A stretch of DNA of 48,400 nucleotides from a virus, in the IMG/VR virus record IMGVR_UViG_3300033153_005857, positions 1 to 48,400 of that record; one strand, written 5' to 3'. Positions 2,799-48,272 of the stretch are shown one piece after another. Within the stretch, counting starts at the first letter, position 1; each line of letters opens with the position of its first letter. Below the pieces are notes generated by a model. The model saw nothing but the letters and a program-made list of their open reading frames with translations. It made no database searches and was not told where the DNA came from. Made by a program: the position numbers and the translations under genes.

Positions 2799-5252
2799 TT
2801 ATTGAATCGCATCAAGATAATCCTGTAAATCTCTTCCACGCTTTACTACGAAATCATCACCAAGATATCCACTAAGCTTTTTGTAGTACGATGATGCACA
2901 CACAAACATAACATTTGAATAAATGCTCTGCGCCTTGAATTTCTTTTTTTTAAGCTCGTCTTCTGTGTGACTGCCATCACGTTCGAATTCCATGGCATAA
3001 GTTTTATCTGCATATTTGAACGTGATATCTTCTATCTTATGGTGATTGACTTGGACGTCTTCTGCATCATTTAGCATTAACTGCCCCGCGATTTGGACTA
3101 CAGTAGAAAAGTGATCCTGTGTCTGGTTAGTAGGTACATCTTTTTCACGTATCCAGGCCGTAACCATACCTGCGCTGGTTGTGCTTGCTACGCGAGTTCT
3201 GGTCCATCCTTGTACTAATGTAGAATTTGGAGCCCACTGATCTAAGCAAAATCCTTCCTGCATGACCAAATTGATAAGCCTTTCGTCCAATTCAACTAAT
3301 TCAGATTCAAGAGCAGTCGCCTTTTTTTCATTTTTCAAATATGCGCCTTTAATCACATCATGCTCAAGTTTTGTGGGCTTGAATATCATGGGATATTTTG
3401 ATTTACCTACCATTAACAACCCTTCCCCAACAGTAGAATTAACTATATTCTCTTTATCTGTTGAATCAAGACCCAAATATTCAGAGACATGTTTGATATT
3501 TGTAGGATCCATATTATTACCTAAGATAATTTTCAAAAATGTATTAGTCTGGAATTCAACATCTACATTGGTTTTCTTGAATACTGCTGCATCTTGGTTG
3601 AATAGCCACAACCCTACACTTTGGCTGGCGCCCTGGGTAAGAGCTGTAACTAAGAAATTAGACATGCGTGGGTTCTGAAGAAATACCCTCGCCTCGTCTA
3701 TTGCAAGGATTGTGCCTTTCTTAGTATCTGTGCTGAACCGTTGCCCCATCATTCCAGCAATAAGAATCCTCATGGGATCTTCTATATCTGCTGCAGTCCC
3801 CGACATGTCAATCACAATGAAATCTTTCGATAGGTCAATGTTCTTATCAGTCTGATGGTTAAGATACTCTAAGACACCACCTTCACCAAGTGAAAAGGTT
3901 TTCCTTAAAACCGCTTTGATTGTTTTCTTATCGTCGCTATCTGTAGTGTTCTTAAGTTCATCTTCCCAGATTGCGAATAGATCGGTTAATACTGGCCATT
4001 TAGCCTCGTGCCAGGTTGATGGAATGTTCCGGTATATCCCTGCGTTTTCATAGCATTTATTCAGGCTGTAATCTATGAAATTTGCCATGTTCACTGACCC
4101 AGTATCCTTGAACCATTCCTCGAAAAACAAGTTTAATGTGCCCTTGTGTGTGTTGAATGCATGGGTGTATTTTACCGGGTCATCTTTCAATTGTGATTGG
4201 TCATATAAGATCTGCATCGGATTGATATTTCTACCACCTGGGCCAGTCTCTATCAGTTCTGCAGAATCCCCCAGATACTCCACTATGGCCCCGTGGTCGG
4301 TGTTTTTATCTGCCTTTGGAGTGCAGTATATAATCCGCTTGTTAAGCATTGACATAGCTCTCCACAGCAACATAAGCATAGTGAATGTCTTGCCGCTTTG
4401 AGTTGGACCGAATACAATGCAGTGAAGTGCTGCCAAGGCGTCAATGTCCACCACGATCTGCTTATTGGTCTTCTTATCGAATCCGAAGAACAATCCTTGC
4501 TTATCTGACTTACTGTTTGGATTTGTGACAGGGACAATCATAGAGGCATACGGTGCCAATACTTCGATCTGAGTATAATCTGGGCTGATGTTATATGGCT
4601 GTGCTGCAAGTAGTGTTTGTTTATGCCTGAAATCTGGGATCTCAACCTCTACACTTTCCTGACCCATGATGGACTTTATATCAGATTCAAGTGTGTTCAA
4701 TCCTTCAACTGAATCACTTTTCATCGTGAGTATTAAGGCAGAATGGAACTGTCTTTCATTATCTTCTACGATAGCTTTGAAATTATCTTTATTGTGTTTA
4801 CGCTCAATTTTTAGGTTCTCATCTATTAATTTTTCTACTTTATCAGAATCATTTTTATTTCGATTCATTGAATCCACTTGCTTAATTTCATTCCTGAAAT
4901 TCGCAGTGTTCATCATTTTGACAGAATCACTACCCTGGATTGGAATTAACTTAGATGAGATTGATAACTGACTTCCATGTGTGGACATTTCCAGTAGTCT
5001 GGTCATCATACTTTCGCTTAGACCTTTAGGATATCCGTTTATTCGGTCTGTAGGAGGCACACCTACGATGATACAGCGCTTATAGGTATCACCATTCACT
5101 ATGACATATTTACCGCTCTTGTGCTCTTCTATTGTGGCCGGTGCTATGTTACGTGCCGCAGCACCCCAGAACATCTCCTCTTCTTGTTTGGTGCGCTCTC
5201 TGGCCACTGCGGTATTATATTTTAGAAAGAATCTATCAATACATTTTAACAT
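2799..5252 (-). CDS. VirB4/HerA-type conjugation ATPase with extra C-terminal nuclease-like domain
   Basis: An 817-residue ATPase of the VirB4/TraC class, which energises type IV secretion and pilus assembly at the membrane. The N-terminal VirB4 domain spans about 40-250 (motif VNGDTYKRCIIVGVPP near 52-67). The P-loop GPTQSGKT is at 282-289, Walker B ILAIDEA at about 515-521, and the downstream motif with a conserved Gln at 540-553. About 150 residues after the ATPase core (from roughly 670) are unusual: they contain an ED...YAMEFER...HTEDELKKK arrangement resembling PD-(D/E)xK or replication-relaxation type domains. It overlaps the PrgI-like gene by seven bases. A pure HerA translocase is the alternative, but the partners favour VirB4. 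Confidence 0.8.
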   Translation of the reverse strand: MLKCIDRFFLKYNTAVARERTKQEEEMFWGAAARNIAPATIEEHKSGKYVIVNGDTYKRCIIVGVPPTDRINGYPKGLSESMMTRLLEMSTHGSQLSISSKLIPIQGSDSVKMMNTANFRNEIKQVDSMNRNKNDSDKVEKLIDENLKIERKHNKDNFKAIVEDNERQFHSALILTMKSDSVEGLNTLESDIKSIMGQESVEVEIPDFRHKQTLLAAQPYNISPDYTQIEVLAPYASMIVPVTNPNSKSDKQGLFFGFDKKTNKQIVVDIDALAALHCIVFGPTQSGKTFTMLMLLWRAMSMLNKRIIYCTPKADKNTDHGAIVEYLGDSAELIETGPGGRNINPMQILYDQSQLKDDPVKYTHAFNTHKGTLNLFFEEWFKDTGSVNMANFIDYSLNKCYENAGIYRNIPSTWHEAKWPVLTDLFAIWEDELKNTTDSDDKKTIKAVLRKTFSLGEGGVLEYLNHQTDKNIDLSKDFIVIDMSGTAADIEDPMRILIAGMMGQRFSTDTKKGTILAIDEARVFLQNPRMSNFLVTALTQGASQSVGLWLFNQDAAVFKKTNVDVEFQTNTFLKIILGNNMDPTNIKHVSEYLGLDSTDKENIVNSTVGEGLLMVGKSKYPMIFKPTKLEHDVIKGAYLKNEKKATALESELVELDERLINLVMQEGFCLDQWAPNSTLVQGWTRTRVASTTSAGMVTAWIREKDVPTNQTQDHFSTVVQIAGQLMLNDAEDVQVNHHKIEDITFKYADKTYAMEFERDGSHTEDELKKKKFKAQSIYSNVMFVCASSYYKKLSGYLGDDFVVKRGRDLQDYLDAIQ

Positions 5253-6073
5253 AACTGTTTCCTCAGATTATACACAACTTCATTACGATTCTCAATCTCC
5301 CTCGCAAATACCCCGGCACGCTCAAATGATTTCAATACACTGGGTATAAATGCCGCCCTTAACTGCTCCGATTCTGCAAGGTTTTTAGTAACAGGAATAG
5401 ATACAATCAACGCAAATTCAACATTGACATCGTCCTTCTTATCCTTTGCTTCCTCGTATAATGAGTATAGATGAGATGTTACCGGTTTGGATACATCTGC
5501 CTGTTTCATTGCTTCCGTAGTGGCTTCGAGTAGTGGATTGTGTGGTTCTACAATCGAATTTGATATGAACTGAAATGAGAAATCACCGTACAACGAATTG
5601 ATTAGATTCTTGATCCGTGTGCTGTGGTTATCTTGTTCGTGTTCTGCTGGCCGTGGTGGTACATATAATATCATAACTCCGGTAGTACCGTCTGGATATG
5701 TGATCAGGCCAGAATCTTCCACGGTTTCAATAGAGACAATCTCTTTCAGGTCATCGAGTGGTTCCACATATTTCTTAGTGATGTGTTTCTTTCGTACAAT
5801 TCTGAATAATAATAATAAGTGTAGCTTGTTTTGATCCAGTGTCTTAACATCCCTGGCAAGTACAAGAACAATTACTCCAAAAACACAGAACACCACCACA
5901 TACCATATGATGTGCTTGAGCCCTATGTTAATCATGAATATCATCGTAAAGCCACACACGGCAATAAAAAACATCCAGACAAACATAAGCCTGTCGTGGA
6001 TGCCAAATAGTGTTTTTGATTCGTGTAAGCGCCGGTATGATGTTGGAACCGGAACGTCTTTTGTTATGCTCAT
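5246..6073 (-). CDS. PrgI/VirB3-like membrane protein of the secretion module
   Basis: A 275-residue protein with two adjacent transmembrane helices near residues 28-50 and 53-72, preceded by a short cytosolic stretch with VPVPTSYRR, as in PrgI/VirB3 proteins of conjugation systems. The soluble part (from about 95) resembles the N-terminal domain of VirB4-family proteins (GLITYPDGTTGVMILYV). In known systems PrgI/VirB3 docks VirB4 to the membrane. It lies directly upstream of, and overlaps, the VirB4 gene, which is the canonical order. Assignment is by topology and context; sequence similarity is weak. Confidence 0.6.
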   Translation of the reverse strand: MSITKDVPVPTSYRRLHESKTLFGIHDRLMFVWMFFIAVCGFTMIFMINIGLKHIIWYVVVFCVFGVIVLVLARDVKTLDQNKLHLLLLFRIVRKKHITKKYVEPLDDLKEIVSIETVEDSGLITYPDGTTGVMILYVPPRPAEHEQDNHSTRIKNLINSLYGDFSFQFISNSIVEPHNPLLEATTEAMKQADVSKPVTSHLYSLYEEAKDKKDDVNVEFALIVSIPVTKNLAESEQLRAAFIPSVLKSFERAGVFAREIENRNEVVYNLRKQLC

Positions 6074-6075
6074 GA

Positions 6076-6411
6076 TTACCAGTAGTTATTCACAAAGTAA
6101 TTGAATCCATTAATCGCTAAGAAATACGCAACAGCGGCAAGTATGATAACGCCGCAACCACTCACACCACTTTTGAACAACTTATTATTATGACTAAACC
6201 ACCCAATGATAATTGCCACAATTGAATATAGTGCGAATATCCCTACAAGTGCCATAATCAATTCTTTAAGACCAACCTCAAGATCATTAAATAATCCGTC
6301 GGTTGTTTCTTCGAACATATTTCCCGTTTCATCTTCTGTGTCTTCACAGAATGCAATTGGAACTATACATAATACCAATGCGACTATAGATAGTATTTTA
6401 ATATATAACAT
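6076..6411 (-). CDS. VirB2-like pilin candidate
   Basis: A 111-residue protein with a cleavable-looking signal peptide (about residues 1-22, ending IAFC/EDTE), an acidic segment, then two transmembrane helices (about 53-75 and 84-105) separated by a short polar loop. This two-helix hairpin after a signal peptide is the VirB2/TraA pilin plan. It is the first gene of the minus-strand operon with PrgI-like and VirB4-like genes, three bases apart. VirB2 proteins are poorly conserved in sequence, so topology and context are the evidence. Confidence 0.6.
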   Translation of the reverse strand: MLYIKILSIVALVLCIVPIAFCEDTEDETGNMFEETTDGLFNDLEVGLKELIMALVGIFALYSIVAIIIGWFSHNNKLFKSGVSGCGVIILAAVAYFLAINGFNYFVNNYW

Positions 6412-6433
6412 AATAATAAACTATATAGTACGC

Positions 6434-6526
6434 AAAGTATATATATGTATTGTAACCATTATATACATATTGTACCACGAAATATATAATTCACACAATA
6501 CATATATATTATAAAAGGGATATATA
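6434..6526. promoter_or_regulatory. Divergent promoter with 15-bp inverted repeat
   Basis: Between the two secretion operons lie a minus-strand TATA element (ATATATACTTT, about 30 nt before 6411) and plus-strand AT-rich TATA-like stretches before 6527. Bases 6439-6453 (ATATATATGTATTGT) form a perfect inverted repeat with 6495-6509, and a related TACATATTGT lies at 6464-6473. The symmetric layout suggests one regulator controls both operons; the AbrB-like protein encoded at 6527 is the natural candidate. Confidence 0.65.
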
Positions 6527-6718
6527 ATGACTATCATGGAAATTATTGGCACATCAAAGGTTGCAGCACAGAAGAAGATCACTCTGGTAGAATCGGTGTT
6601 CGGTATATTGAACGTAGCCATTGGTGATAGAATTGCATACATCAAAAATACATCTGGAGATATTATAATCAAAAAACTATCAGATATTAAAATGAAAGAT
6701 TCGGAGGTTGAATCATGA
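6527..6718 (+). CDS. AbrB/SpoVT-like regulator
   Basis: A 63-residue protein with the swapped-hairpin pattern of AbrB-type domains: GTSKVAAQKKITLVESVFGILNVAIGDRIAYI, where a strand, KKITL, a helix and a GDRI turn follow in order. AbrB domains bind DNA as dimers and are common transition regulators in archaea. It is the first plus-strand gene behind the symmetric divergent promoter, which suggests it regulates itself and the minus-strand pilin operon. Its stop overlaps the next ATG. Confidence 0.7.
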   Translation: MTIMEIIGTSKVAAQKKITLVESVFGILNVAIGDRIAYIKNTSGDIIIKKLSDIKMKDSEVES

Positions 6719-6843
6719 ATGGAGTAATAACACTGGGTGCTTTTACAATCCCATTAGACACGGCATACAAGGCAAGCGTAATAGGTCTACTGACTACTAT
6801 AGCCGCATCACTGGCATATATGGCATACTGGATATCCACATGA
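6715..6843 (+). CDS. Small membrane protein, 42 aa
   Basis: A 42-codon frame that overlaps both neighbours by four bases (ATGA). It has one strong transmembrane helix (about residues 21-40, SVIGLLTTIAASLAYMAYW). The coupling places it within the secretion operon; a small accessory subunit such as a second pilin-like or VirB3-like subunit is possible but unproven. Confidence 0.6.
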   Translation: MNGVITLGAFTIPLDTAYKASVIGLLTTIAASLAYMAYWIST

Positions 6844-7766
6844 GGCCATACATAGCCGTTGTCCTGGCCGCACTTATATTGTTCAGTTCAACGTCTATAG
6901 CTTCTGCCGGACTATCAGATGCAGCAAGTACGGCGATCTCTAACGGCATGGAAAATTTCTGCATATCTGCCGCAGATAATATATTTTCAATGTCATTCTC
7001 AGGATATGACGACACCGCAGATAACGGCACAGTCGGATATATCTACAATATTGCATCGTATACGCTGGACCCGATGAAATTCGAGATTACACAGGATTTC
7101 ATATCATTTTCTAAATCGATATTCAAGGCGGCATACCCTATACTACTTCTATGTGCGTTCATGGCCGTCCTGCTAACTCATTACAAGACCAATGCACTGC
7201 ATCAGATAGAACAGATCACTGGAACAAAGATCAGTTCAAAGTCGAATATCCTAGTAAGAAAAGCCCTTGATGGTATTATAGTTGCAGTCTTTATGTACAT
7301 ATTTATCTATTTCGTATTCACACTTAATAATATTCTCACAAAAGCGGTTATGATCAATATACTAGATGTGATTTCACCATCGCCTGATAACTTTATATTA
7401 TATCTCATAATGGCTGTTTGCTATTTAGTAATGGGTATATTCTTTAGTCTTCGAACTCTGATATTATTTTTATTCTGTGGTTTTGCCCTGATTATTGGGT
7501 TCTGTCTACTAATAGATTTCACAAAGGAAACTGCAATAGGTTTGTGCACATACTTTGTACAGACTGTGTTCTTCCAATTCATTATAGTGTTGTATTTCTC
7601 AGCATGTATTGTAATTATAAAAACCGTGACTGATGGGGTGTATCAGGGTGGTGAAGAGACAATGTATATGGTCATGCTGTTGGGTGGCGTATACATAGCA
7701 ATTAGAATGATGTTCGGAACTAAGGTGATAAAATGGGTTGGAAACAGGGCGTCTGCGTTGGTCTAA
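6840..7766 (+). CDS. VirB6/TrbL-like polytopic membrane protein
   Basis: Start at ATG 6840, coupled to the upstream stop, gives a 308-residue protein with a signal peptide (to about residue 24, SIASA) and then roughly six transmembrane helices, including long ones near 95-115, 150-175, 185-210, 215-240, 250-275 and 280-300. Longer upstream frames only add residues from another gene. A polytopic protein with an exported N-terminal loop downstream of a secretion operon fits VirB6/TrbL, the inner-membrane channel component. Sequence identity to the family is not evident by eye. It overlaps the next gene by 34 bases. Confidence 0.6.
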   Translation: MRPYIAVVLAALILFSSTSIASAGLSDAASTAISNGMENFCISAADNIFSMSFSGYDDTADNGTVGYIYNIASYTLDPMKFEITQDFISFSKSIFKAAYPILLLCAFMAVLLTHYKTNALHQIEQITGTKISSKSNILVRKALDGIIVAVFMYIFIYFVFTLNNILTKAVMINILDVISPSPDNFILYLIMAVCYLVMGIFFSLRTLILFLFCGFALIIGFCLLIDFTKETAIGLCTYFVQTVFFQFIIVLYFSACIVIIKTVTDGVYQGGEETMYMVMLLGGVYIAIRMMFGTKVIKWVGNRASALV

Positions 7767-8701
7767 TCATTGTGCTACTGTTTATCATGCCATGCCAGGC
7801 AGGCATGAGCGCAGATATATTTTACAAGTTTCTGAATGGTTCTAAAACAATCACCAGCGCTAATGATATCGTGTATGTTGAATCAGGATATACTCTTAAC
7901 AGTACTGTACAATCACACAAACACCTCGGAGGAATTGTTGACATCGTGGGATTCAGCCATATGGTATGTATTGATGGTGAGTATTATATCCCGGGCGCCC
8001 CGGAAGATCATGCCATAATTAAAACGAAACTGTGGGATAAAGGACTTGACTGGAATGACAATCTCGATTATATCAAGATTACTGATGAGCGCATTACCAC
8101 AGTAGACAATATCACCACCGTTGAAATTGATATATATCTCAAATGGCACCATTCTAAGAAACGAAAACCACCCGGAAAAGGTATTAAGAAAACGTACTAT
8201 CATGAGTATGCAACATTTATTGCATCAAGACAAGCGCCACAACCATATCCAGATACCATCATACCAGAATTGAATGTGATTGTTTACAATGACAGCATCA
8301 AACCAAAAACCATTATACCTCTGTCTGATTCAGATTATATCCTGGGCTACATGATTGAATTTAAAAACGAATCTGTGGAATATTTTAATAGTGTGCTATC
8401 CGTAGAAAAACAAGATAATGGCGTACCGTATGGAAATATCACCAAAGTTGCATCTCAATCCATCTATGAAGATTCTGATATGTTCAGCCGGGCAGGTCCT
8501 AACATAATAATCAATTCGACTGAGATAGACGACAGTTTGAAGATATATGCTGTGACTCCATTTGACGAACTTGAAATAAATTACACGGTCACTAATTATT
8601 CAGATAGGCAAATGTTAGATAATGTCCAACTATCAAGCGCATTCAGTCTGTTGATGCTTGCATGGGTTATTATATTTTTATTGAAGTATTATAGGAAGTG
8701 A
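7733..8701 (+). CDS. Secreted, C-terminally anchored surface protein
   Basis: A 322-residue protein with a signal peptide (about 1-23, ending PCQAG), an approximately 270-residue predicted extracellular beta-rich region with many N-glycosylation-type sequons, and a C-terminal transmembrane helix followed by YYRK. It is the last gene of the plus-strand secretion operon. It could be an adhesin at the pilus tip or base, or an exclusion factor. No domain was recognised. Confidence 0.6.
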   Translation: MGWKQGVCVGLIIVLLFIMPCQAGMSADIFYKFLNGSKTITSANDIVYVESGYTLNSTVQSHKHLGGIVDIVGFSHMVCIDGEYYIPGAPEDHAIIKTKLWDKGLDWNDNLDYIKITDERITTVDNITTVEIDIYLKWHHSKKRKPPGKGIKKTYYHEYATFIASRQAPQPYPDTIIPELNVIVYNDSIKPKTIIPLSDSDYILGYMIEFKNESVEYFNSVLSVEKQDNGVPYGNITKVASQSIYEDSDMFSRAGPNIIINSTEIDDSLKIYAVTPFDELEINYTVTNYSDRQMLDNVQLSSAFSLLMLAWVIIFLLKYYRK

Positions 8702-41935: not shown

Positions 41936-42295
41936 CTAATCCATCAGATTATGATGTTGTCTCTCTTTCAATTCCTGTTTTTTCCCAGCGTTCCATCCAG
42001 CAACATCACCCATGTACCCAGTGACTCTTGATAGCTGTGTCACATTATGCGATGAGCAGTTCGGGCACATTGGTAAATTACAAATAGGACAATTAACAAT
42101 CCCACCCACTAAATCTTTGCAACATGCTTGATGGTTATGCATTACCCAGACATGCACAGGGCATTCAACTGGTGTTTTTACTTTGATTGGTTGACCATCA
42201 TTGAATTCATCGATCCATGCCTGGCATCTATCAATATACTCTTGCCTTGATAGTGCCATTGATTCTTTTCTTGTTATTGGTTTATATTCTGTCAT
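41936..42295 (-). CDS. Stand-alone NrdD C-terminal (glycyl radical) domain
   Basis: A 119-residue protein whose C-terminal half reproduces the end of anaerobic ribonucleoside-triphosphate reductase (NrdD): a zinc site of four Cys (C69-x2-C72-x4-C77-x2-C80) followed by the glycyl-radical motif LSRVTGYMGDVAGWNAGKKQE, with the radical Gly at residue 93. Full NrdD proteins are 600-700 residues; none of the catalytic body is present here or nearby. The N-terminal half (residues 1-60, with a second Cys/His cluster CPVHVWVMHNHQACC) is not recognised. It might act as a spare radical domain for a damaged host NrdD, as YfiD/GrcA does for pyruvate formate-lyase. Alternatively the gene is an NrdD remnant. 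Confidence 0.75.
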   Translation of the reverse strand: MTEYKPITRKESMALSRQEYIDRCQAWIDEFNDGQPIKVKTPVECPVHVWVMHNHQACCKDLVGGIVNCPICNLPMCPNCSSHNVTQLSRVTGYMGDVAGWNAGKKQELKERQHHNLMD

Positions 42296-42347: not shown

Positions 42348-42482
42348 TCATATTGTGTCTGTAGTGTGCAAGTTACTTGTCTCTTTTGGGGCATAACAAA
42401 CAGGGCACGATTTGCCTTTTTTCTTCCATTTGATTCCACAATCTGAGCAGGTTTCAACGTTTTCATTCCATCTTTCATACAT
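42348..42482 (-). CDS. Zinc-ribbon microprotein, 44 aa
   Basis: MYERWNENVETCSDCGIKWKKKGKSCPVCYAP... has two CxxC knuckles 11 residues apart, a complete zinc ribbon. It is ten bases downstream of the ERCC4-type nuclease gene in the same operon. Likely an accessory DNA- or protein-binding unit. Confidence 0.65.
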   Translation of the reverse strand: MYERWNENVETCSDCGIKWKKKGKSCPVCYAPKETSNLHTTDTI

Positions 42483-42492
42483 TTTATTTACC

Positions 42493-43182
42493 TCATTCTA
42501 TATTCAAAATCCGCACATAGCTGGCCCTGCACCACTGAAGCACCAAATCATGATAGTATTCTACTGCATGTTTCCTTGTTCCCATGAATTTCACCGGGCA
42601 CCCATTCACATCTAACTTTGCTATTGTCGCCCGGCGTGCGGCAACATTCATACCGAAGTTGGTATTATTGTAGTTCTTACCGTTGAACGCTGGCTTGAAA
42701 CTCAGGTATTCTCCATAAGAGCATTCGGCGATTAATACCATGATATCGAACCTGGGATCGTCTTTGAACCGCTGGATTTCACGATAAAACCTGCTGCGAT
42801 TATCTGACTTTGAGAATGTCTGATATAAATCGCATCCAGTCATTCTGCCGTTTTTCCTGGTGGTGCCCTTCCGCTCTACCATCACACCTGCAAACGTGTC
42901 GTAGTCGTCAAGATATGCGATGTAGTCACCAGTCTGCGGCGTACCGCTGGCCTGTTTGGTTGCCATAGGTATGCAAGGGTATCCGATCTCATCTGCCTGC
43001 CAGGGCGTTTGTTCATTGTTGGCTACTTGGACGGTGATATTCAGTTTATTCACCCAGGAGGTAAGCTGCCGGGATAACTGATCTTGTTTCTTGTCGTGAT
43101 CAGGGTGATACTCTGGTAACTGTTGGAGTTCTACGTGGAGCTGTAGGATGTTTGCAGCATAGTCATCTATTGTCTTTTTCAT
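42493..43182 (-). CDS. ERCC4-type (XPF/Hef-like) nuclease
   Basis: Start ATG 43182 follows AGGTGG with six-base spacing. The 229-residue protein contains GDYIAYLDDYDTFAGVMVERKG, the GD-Y...ERK catalytic motif of XPF/ERCC4 nucleases, followed by DLYQTFSKSDNRSRFYREIQRFKDDPRFDIMVLIAE. This family cleaves branched DNA, for example at replication forks. The N-terminal 80 residues include a helical region of unknown function. It overlaps the ASCH gene by one base. Confidence 0.85.
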   Translation of the reverse strand: MKKTIDDYAANILQLHVELQQLPEYHPDHDKKQDQLSRQLTSWVNKLNITVQVANNEQTPWQADEIGYPCIPMATKQASGTPQTGDYIAYLDDYDTFAGVMVERKGTTRKNGRMTGCDLYQTFSKSDNRSRFYREIQRFKDDPRFDIMVLIAECSYGEYLSFKPAFNGKNYNNTNFGMNVAARRATIAKLDVNGCPVKFMGTRKHAVEYYHDLVLQWCRASYVRILNIE

Positions 43183-43580
43183 TAAGACCACCTGATTATC
43201 TGATATGCTTCAGGTTCGTCCGACGCACCATTCAGGCCGAATAGTACATCTCGAAGTGCTTCGCCTGTCGGTGGATCTATGAAATCATACTCAGCTAGGC
43301 GCCCAGGATACCATGAAGTCCACGCATGTAACACCTCGTCTATATACATTCCTTGTGATGATAGTTCAGCATCAATCACTTCATATACTACAACTCTCTT
43401 ACGCCAATCCCACTTAGATCTGTACGGCCTGCCAGCCCAACCATGGAACAAGATCTCATTACCCACAGACACCTTACGGCCTTTCCTTACGGCCCTAATT
43501 GTCTGTGTACATTCACCAGATTGTACGGCTGAAATTTTGGGTTGATATGTCATACTCATAACGTGTTTTTTTATTGTCAT
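43182..43580 (-). CDS. ASCH-domain protein
   Basis: The 132-residue protein has the ASCH (PUA-like) pattern: SGECTQTIRAVRKGRKVSVGNEILFHGWAGRPYRSKW, where the 'KT.T.R......GD.......G' core is visible as QTIRAVRKGRKVSVGNEI. ASCH domains bind RNA or modified bases and occur in phages; function here unknown. A 19-residue remnant with the same N-terminus is at 44402-44461. Confidence 0.7.
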   Translation of the reverse strand: MTIKKHVMSMTYQPKISAVQSGECTQTIRAVRKGRKVSVGNEILFHGWAGRPYRSKWDWRKRVVVYEVIDAELSSQGMYIDEVLHAWTSWYPGRLAEYDFIDPPTGEALRDVLFGLNGASDEPEAYQIIRWS

Positions 43581-45503: not shown

Positions 45504-46343
45504 TTAAGTACTTACCTCTTCAGCAGATACCTCTCCAGCTGCAACCATATCAGATATAGCCCTGTTCTTTGCTCTTGTATGGGCTGTTGCATAGGTATCA
45601 TGTTCAAGATGTGCAAAGTTCCTCTCAGATGTTGAACACATCCCAACACCTTCAGTAATCCTGCCATTCGGCGCCATACACTCGACTTTGATTTTCCAAG
45701 TCCATCCTTGGCCGTCTTGGTGCGGTGTCTGTACCTCTTCAACGATCTTATCATTTAAATTGAAGAACGTTGCGAACTTGCGCCATGCAGATTTCTTCAT
45801 GAAATCTTTTCCAGATATTCTCTGTAAATCACTTGGTTGAAGTATGGCCTTTTTTAGGTCTTGGAATTCATTCCATGCAGCTATTGCTTGTTGCGCAGAT
45901 ACTGCCGGGCGAACTATATCTGTTGTAGTTGACAGTGGCACTAATGCACCACCATGTGCGCCTATTGGTGTTGTGGTTTCGTCTGGTATAGGCTCCGACT
46001 TAGTCTGCACATCGTCTGGCTGCTCAAGTGTCCCATCCTGTGCCTTGGTATTCACAATGATATCAGCCTCTGTCCTCGAAGGCATCTGGCCATCCTCTGC
46101 TTCGGTGATCATCTTCGATACTTTTGCAAGAGTATCATGTTCATCATCAATTACTACCTTCTGTTTGTTCTCCATAAAGTACACTGATGTTCCGGCTGTC
46201 ATATCTACTACAGTCTTCTTCATGCCATGCTCTTGTGTAAATATTCCAGGGAAGTCTGGGTTTTCTGTGAATCCTGCGATTCCAAGTGCCTGTACTATCA
46301 ATTCTGTCTTTTGTTCTGGCGTTGCGGTCATATTATCGGTCAT
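45504..46343 (-). CDS. Recombination (single-strand annealing)-type protein candidate
   Basis: Start ATG 46343 has AGGAGGAATAGTA before it. The 279-residue protein has an N-terminal variable part and a conserved-looking C-terminal core (about 165-279): FMKKSAWRKFATFFNL...CMAPNGRITEGVGMCSTSERNFAHLEHDTYATAHTRAKNRAISDMVAAGEVSAEEV. This core resembles proteins found in phages and archaea near recombination genes, which have a Rad52/RecT/Erf-like flavour (ATAxTRAxNRAI motif). Annealing function is an inference from motif style and operon context. Confidence 0.55.
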   Translation of the reverse strand: MTDNMTATPEQKTELIVQALGIAGFTENPDFPGIFTQEHGMKKTVVDMTAGTSVYFMENKQKVVIDDEHDTLAKVSKMITEAEDGQMPSRTEADIIVNTKAQDGTLEQPDDVQTKSEPIPDETTTPIGAHGGALVPLSTTTDIVRPAVSAQQAIAAWNEFQDLKKAILQPSDLQRISGKDFMKKSAWRKFATFFNLNDKIVEEVQTPHQDGQGWTWKIKVECMAPNGRITEGVGMCSTSERNFAHLEHDTYATAHTRAKNRAISDMVAAGEVSAEEVST

Positions 46344-46345
46344 TA

Positions 46346-46528
46346 CTATTCCTCCTGTTTGTCTGGACACAATGCTTTTCTCATTACGTCTGCAATAAAA
46401 TCAATGGCTTCAGCAGACAAATTATATTGTACTATGTCGACATATTTGCCGTTTTTCAAATCATACATCAAATGATTTAGTGTTTCAATATCATCTTCAG
46501 TTAATTTATCTTGACTAGCATATTTCAT
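46346..46528 (-). CDS. Hypothetical helical protein, 60 aa
   Basis: Start ATG 46528 (MKYASQDKLTEDDIETLNHLMYDLKNGK) is chosen because the longer frame to 46705 runs in the middle of the next gene. It is helical and acidic, ending three bases before the annealing-type gene. No family recognised. Confidence 0.5.
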   Translation of the reverse strand: MKYASQDKLTEDDIETLNHLMYDLKNGKYVDIVQYNLSAEAIDFIADVMRKALCPDKQEE

Positions 46529-48200: not shown

Positions 48201-48272
48201 AGCCAACAGCCGGAGTTGAACCGACAATCCAGCCCTTACAGGGGGCTTGCCATACCGTTAGGCCATGTTGGC
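48201..48272 (-). tRNA. tRNA-Thr (UGU), C at position 33
   Basis: A 72-nt cloverleaf on the minus strand. Acceptor stem GCCAACA/TGTTGGC pairs completely; D-arm GCC/GGC; anticodon arm AGCCC-CCTGTAA-GGGCT with anticodon TGT (34-36); T-arm GTCGG-TTCAACT-CCGGC; discriminator base T, and no CCA encoded, as usual in archaea. U73 and the G1-C72, C2-G71 start agree with archaeal tRNA-Thr. Position 33, nearly always T, is C here, so translation could be inefficient or the RNA may have another use. Other anticodon alignments break the stem. Confidence 0.85.

Follow-up and report, generated by a model that had tools for sequence, protein, structure and literature searches.

Class III ribonucleotide reductase (RNR) works by a glycyl radical, which is made by NrdG and oxidises an active-site Cys, and the chain of the enzyme is cut by oxygen at the radical Gly (PMC3019208, PMC4390871). 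Therefore, a detached radical domain could supply the radical to a catalytic body that has none. The only validated glycyl-radical spare parts are YfiD and T4 Y06I, both for pyruvate formate-lyase (PFL), and others may exist (PMC8683613). Splits of RNR are on record for the class II enzyme NrdJa/NrdJb of Pseudomonas and for phage nrdD split by a mobile element (PMC9669993, PMC3653736). In the open-access literature, which leaves subscription journals mostly uncovered, we found neither a separate NrdD radical domain nor a split NrdD of methanogens.

The radical-domain gene and its virus record

The DNA analyzed here (the window) is an entire virus record of 48,400 bases, encoding a phage-type terminase, a major head protein, a tape-measure protein, and a primase. 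A 119-aa ORF with an ATG start, designated P0001, was identified on the minus strand (42295-41936). The features of the gene and its surroundings are as follows:

41936..42295, minus strand: gene P0001, stand-alone NrdD-type glycyl-radical protein of 119 aa (Pfam/NCBIfam matches and end-to-end homologues)
42110..42295, minus strand: N-terminal half, residues 1-62, outside the NRDD match (42% identity to L163 when compared alone; alignment A3)
42056..42091, minus strand: four-Cys zinc site C69-x2-C72-x4-C77-x2-C80 (kept in 58/58 stand-alone proteins)
42014..42028, minus strand: radical loop RVTGY, in which G93 is the predicted radical glycine (G93 in 58/58; Pfam NRDD match)
41972..41998, minus strand: GWNAGKKQE motif, C-terminal of the glycine (read in the translation)
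43182..43580, minus strand: conserved neighbour gene, ASCH-like by eye (40-43% identity to homologues in L003 and L211)

Residues 67-115 of P0001 matched the end of Pfam NRDD (PF13597, positions 521-562 of 562) in a profile search with 45.1 bits (cut-off 26.2) and an E of 7e-12. Additionally, the last 40 positions of TIGR02487 NrdD were matched in an NCBIfam search, with agreement among the NCBIfam NrdD models, and the anaerobic NrdD 8p23 was the top solved-structure match (E 4e-7). P0001 thus lies above the curated cut-off of PF13597 and has the four zinc Cys and the radical Gly of the family. A first-pass annotation of the sequence had claimed an NrdD-type glycyl-radical domain with a four-Cys zinc site, RVTGY, and GWNAGKKQE, and had proposed a profile check against NrdD; the check gave this clear match, and all the motifs are present (C69, C72, C77, and C80; R90-V-T-G93-Y94, then GWNAGKKQE). 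The catalytic barrel was not found in P0001, in which only NRDD positions 521-562 were matched. Judged by its sequence, P0001 is a detached domain and not a complete NrdD. No GrcA or PFL glycine-radical model of Pfam or NCBIfam matched P0001 at E up to 1, which rules out membership of the GrcA/YfiD family by sequence. AlphaFold models of P0001 were poor (pLDDT 58.1 and 56.8 in two runs), and the stability of an RNA hairpin behind the gene was not clearly above that of shuffles (z -0.75).

The first-pass annotation had also stated that the catalytic body is absent from the window, and the NRDD profile indeed matched at one place only. Neither a second NRDD match nor NrdG (NrdG2) was found by search of the 48,400-base record, which may be incomplete.

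Full-length relatives of P0001 were found in viral or virus-like sequences (L002, 66% identical; L008, 67%; L009, 66%). These homologues (66-67%), of the kind that the first-pass annotation had proposed to seek in other viruses, keep the radical Gly and the four Cys. L008 has a terminase-like gene on one side and a portal-like gene on the other (both by eye); its contig had been assigned to a bacterial bin, probably wrongly. Pairwise dN/dS was ~0.19 for the window versus L008 and ~0.18 for L008 versus L009, and synonymous sites were saturated in the comparisons with L002. The radical Gly, the four zinc Cys, and H83 were invariant in all 58 stand-alone proteins compared, a set chosen by the motif SR[VI]T.Y..WN, so that those letters, and not the Gly and Cys, are partly conserved through the choice itself. 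Conservation of G93 and the four Cys under purifying selection, for which a check had been proposed, was supported (58/58 intact homologues, dN/dS ~0.2). Loss of the Gly or Cys had been named as a sign of a broken gene. These residues are kept in every intact homologue. Two decayed chromosomal copies from Methanosarcinales were excluded from the 58-protein set: L184 (1495-1686), in which the radical Gly is replaced by Cys and one zinc Cys is lost, and L177 (1489-1830), which has a frameshift past the radical loop. A neighbouring gene restoring NrdD, named as a second such sign, was absent from the window and the virus records checked.

The N-terminal 60 residues of P0001 are conserved in its relatives, with C24, C45, and C58 invariant (alignment A3), and this half is common to the chromosomal stand-alone proteins of Methanosarcinales and the viruses L002, L008, and L009. 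The separate N-terminal part that had been described is therefore real and conserved, but it has single conserved Cys and no clear Cys/His pairs of its own.

The window virus probably infects a methane-making archaeon. Its terminase had its closest matches in genomes G248 and G467, both Methanosarcinales, and its capsid protein was about equally close to one Methanomicrobiales and one Methanosarcinales genome. The host order suggested by these proteins is ambiguous, the terminase pointing to Methanosarcinales and the capsid protein to both orders. Genome G248 contains a provirus related to the window, which shares the terminase and one gene adjoining the radical-domain locus. The radical-domain gene itself was not found in the provirus stretch read, and it therefore looks like accessory cargo.

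Homologues of the neighbour gene 43182..43580, which had no Pfam match, are the immediate upstream neighbours of the radical-domain gene in L003 and L211, a link that is positional only. Close to the radical-domain gene on its upstream side, the window has an ORF of 44 aa (42348-42482, minus strand) whose translation shows a CxxC...CxxC zinc-ribbon pattern. A block at 2799-8701 with an ATPase (VirB4-like by eye) and membrane-type proteins is common to the window and L002 (25-37% identity); apart from it, few window genes match in the L002 stretch compared. A tRNA-Thr(TGT) near the record end (48201-48272, minus strand) might either serve the virus as a tRNA or mark an attachment site.

Stand-alone genes in methanogens and other viruses

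The terminase search led to G248 and G467, and the order of 186 genomes containing them, which we take, as a tentative lead, to be Methanosarcinales, was then searched. Ten genomes of this order had an intact stand-alone gene encoding 117-119 aa; a few others had versions of 116-126 aa or 84-88 aa, and two had decayed copies. Most Methanosarcinales lack the stand-alone gene and some copies have decayed; therefore, the gene is not essential there. The flanks of the Methanosarcinales genes inspected contained cellular, not viral, genes. NrdD with the radical-domain positions was detected in 19 of the 19 carriers tested, as a single match over positions 1-562 in 16 of them and in pieces or nearly complete in G445, G502, and G504. 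The cellular homologues are thus accompanied in all 19 carriers by an intact enzyme of their own kind, the arrangement expected of a spare part. A body without its radical domain, as expected for a split enzyme, was seen in Methanomicrobiales, and no such Gly-less NrdD body was present in any of the 19 Methanosarcinales carriers tested.

P0001 aligned with the Methanosarcinales stand-alone protein without gaps over 117 residues (50% identity). Against the Methanomicrobiales type, it could be aligned over residues 54-117 only, and the N-terminal ribbon of that type is missing from it. The idea that P0001 merely represents the Methanomicrobiales subunit was abandoned in view of the closer, end-to-end Methanosarcinales homologue beside an intact NrdD.

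The Methanomicrobiales survey covered 150 genomes of the order of L010, a Methanomicrobiales MAG; as in all the genome counts given here, they are species representatives, many of them MAGs, and related genomes in the counts are not independent data points. The stand-alone protein was matched in 122 of the 150 genomes, nearly all along its length. Body and stand-alone protein occurred together in 117 genomes, the body only in 3, the stand-alone protein only in 5, and neither in 25; several of the genomes with unpaired or missing parts are small, presumably incomplete assemblies. In other words, a stand-alone protein of 120-130 aa was present in 117 of 120 genomes with a radical-less NrdD body. 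The bodies nearly all end at profile position 510-516, and the radical motif was absent from the ends of all 27 bodies read. When 31 Methanomicrobiales bodies were aligned with 8 full-length NrdD relatives, the five Cys that never vary within the catalytic part of the full-length enzyme were kept in 31/31, the first zinc Cys was replaced in 28, the next two were deleted in all, and the radical Gly was missing in 30 (the remaining G is probably misaligned). Most of the zinc Cys and the Gly have gone from the bodies, so that the residues missing from the body are found in the separate protein. Some Methanomicrobiales bodies are 1200-2000 aa long (e.g., in G065 and G100), and their profile matches are interrupted around positions 53 and 263, a pattern that one or two inteins would be expected to produce.

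In complete chromosomes (e.g., G022, G056, and G125), hundreds of kilobases lie between the body gene and the stand-alone gene. A glutaredoxin-like gene precedes the body gene in 3/3 loci inspected, and the stand-alone gene lies near genes for OMP decarboxylase, deoxyhypusine synthase, and CbiZ in the loci inspected. NrdG2 was found in all eight Methanomicrobiales genomes tested, above the curated cut-off in seven and just under it in one. Class I/II RNR was undetected in 15 of the 150 genomes, and 14 of those 15, including the single 1.95-Mb contig of G125, have the split enzyme as the only RNR detected. Therefore, the split enzyme should work as two polypeptides; indeed, going by these gene inventories, it must work, unless another, as yet unrecognised reductase exists. 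A radical supplied in trans seems unavoidable in Methanomicrobiales, where, on the genomes surveyed, the separate protein is the only radical-domain source for NrdD and not a spare.

Stand-alone genes beyond the window were found in L002, L003, L004, L008 (the misbinned contig), L009, L040-L042, and L207-L211, and at least 12 other virus records have one of the two stand-alone types. Five of these records (L002, L003, L040, L041, and L042) contained no further NRDD match and no NrdG. In the tree, the window, L002, L008, and L009 grouped with the genes of Methanosarcinales (support 80/76), and the Methanomicrobiales type was joined by the viruses L003, L040, L041, and L042 (98/98). The tree of the C-terminal part, which has few columns, set the stand-alone proteins apart from the ends of full-length NrdD (100/99).

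Other arrangements of the radical domain were also observed. In two contigs of one MAG (L009 1348-2100 and L064 913-1665), a protein homologous to the product of window ORF 45504-46370 contributes its N-terminal part, to which the radical domain is joined as the C-terminal part of the fusion. The virus contig L212 (410-796) has another short NrdD-type radical domain, of the bacterial kind (RVMGYLRPISGWNAGK), preceded by an N-terminal part that is unrelated. The phage L006 encodes a 613-aa NrdD body (5018-6859), a radical-SAM (NrdG-like) protein (7393-7965), and a separate radical piece of ~44 aa (7968-8099), and two chloroflexal MAGs (L032/L047 and L033/L048) have an NrdD body with a piece of ~50 aa just downstream. 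The phage and chloroflexal cases appear to be independent splits in bacteria. Within its order, the chloroflexal split (G006 and G007) is uncommon: NrdD was found in 2 of 101 genomes and was split in one.

Proposed function and competing readings

We regard it as likely that P0001 is a class III RNR radical domain that acts in trans, is activated by the NrdG of the host, and supports viral dNTP supply. In the course of activation, docking, oxygen repair, and benefit to the virus that we infer, the host NrdG (radical SAM) would put the radical on G93, and the domain, held together by zinc, would bind an NrdD body in the host that has no working radical domain, this domain having been cleaved by oxygen in a Methanosarcinales-like host or lost in the lineage in Methanomicrobiales. 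The radical would then be passed to the active-site Cys of the body, and dNTP synthesis could run during infection. The window virus has neither NrdD nor NrdG of its own in the record; therefore, the proposed function would depend wholly on the host.

For the proteins as a whole, we lean slightly towards a family of trans-acting class III RNR radical domains in methanogens and their viruses, which would be a spare beside intact NrdD in Methanosarcinales and an obligate subunit in Methanomicrobiales. As a part of this reading, and with the same slight preference, the family might have originated as a spare, or coexisted as one, before the Methanomicrobiales NrdD lost its own radical domain.

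A strict repair role is a serious contender, about which we are nevertheless somewhat doubtful. Here the host would be one of the Methanosarcinales with an intact NrdD, and P0001 would replace an oxygen-cleaved radical domain, as do YfiD/GrcA and T4 Y06I. P0001 is of the Methanosarcinales type from end to end, carriers in that order have intact NrdD and no Gly-less body, the closest terminase matches are those in G248 and G467, and YfiD is similar in size and in layout (60 N-terminal residues ahead of a duplicated C-terminal domain). However, the capsid protein favours neither order, the tree grouping is modestly supported (80/76), and the link to oxygen is drawn by analogy with YfiD. The YfiD-like spare part put forward in the first-pass annotation thus fits the Methanosarcinales homologues, which stand beside full-length NrdD in 19/19 carriers, but not Methanomicrobiales, whose NrdD would depend on the separate protein.

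It is possible, but rather unlikely for P0001, that the host has a split NrdD and that the viral protein competes with or tops up the host radical subunit and raises dNTP output. The split arrangement is order-wide in Methanomicrobiales, and the proteins of L003, L040-L042, and L207-L211 are nearer to the Methanomicrobiales type and have its extra N-terminal ribbon; P0001, against this, is without the ribbon and aligns over residues 54-117 only. A virus of a Methanomicrobiales host would supply an essential subunit rather than a repair part.

That P0001 is a decoy, occupying NrdG or NrdD and stopping host ribonucleotide reduction, or else a zinc-ribbon regulator, would suit a small virus-encoded protein unlinked to NrdD or NrdG, but we consider it improbable: chromosomes retain proteins of this kind, which provide the sole radical domain present in Methanomicrobiales, and a decoy could dispense with the radical Gly, yet G93 is present in 58/58. 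Finally, although the radical domain occurs without its enzyme in the window record, a fragment of a broken NrdD gene is ruled out for practical purposes by purifying selection (dN/dS ~0.2) and by same-length homologues in distant viruses and chromosomes that have the same start, conserved N-terminal half, and stop.

Comparison with known systems

Under the reading of a trans-acting radical domain, the P0001 family is a strong candidate spare part for RNR, an enzyme essential to DNA synthesis. The natural, order-wide split version makes the question of a radical domain acting in trans directly testable. Viruses with either type of small piece may have a cheap influence on dNTP supply while encoding no reductase.

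P0001 has the zinc Cys, the RVTGY loop, WNAGKKQE, and the C-terminal stretch in common with the C-terminal domain of NrdD (PF13597 and TIGR02487), but of the 562 profile positions it covers the last 42 alone, on a separate protein of 119 aa with an N-terminal half of its own. GrcA/YfiD and T4 Y06I are, as P0001, small proteins in which a duplicated glycyl-radical domain follows an N-terminal part (PMC8683613). GrcA/YfiD coexists with the intact enzyme, as do the Methanosarcinales homologues, and T4 Y06I is virus-encoded, as is P0001; however, P0001 belongs to the NrdD family and not to the PFL family. In NrdJa/NrdJb of Pseudomonas and the split phage nrdD, a single reductase is made from two polypeptides, as in split NrdD. 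Unlike in those cases, the break in Methanomicrobiales separates the radical domain from the class III body, is found across the order, and leaves the two genes unlinked.
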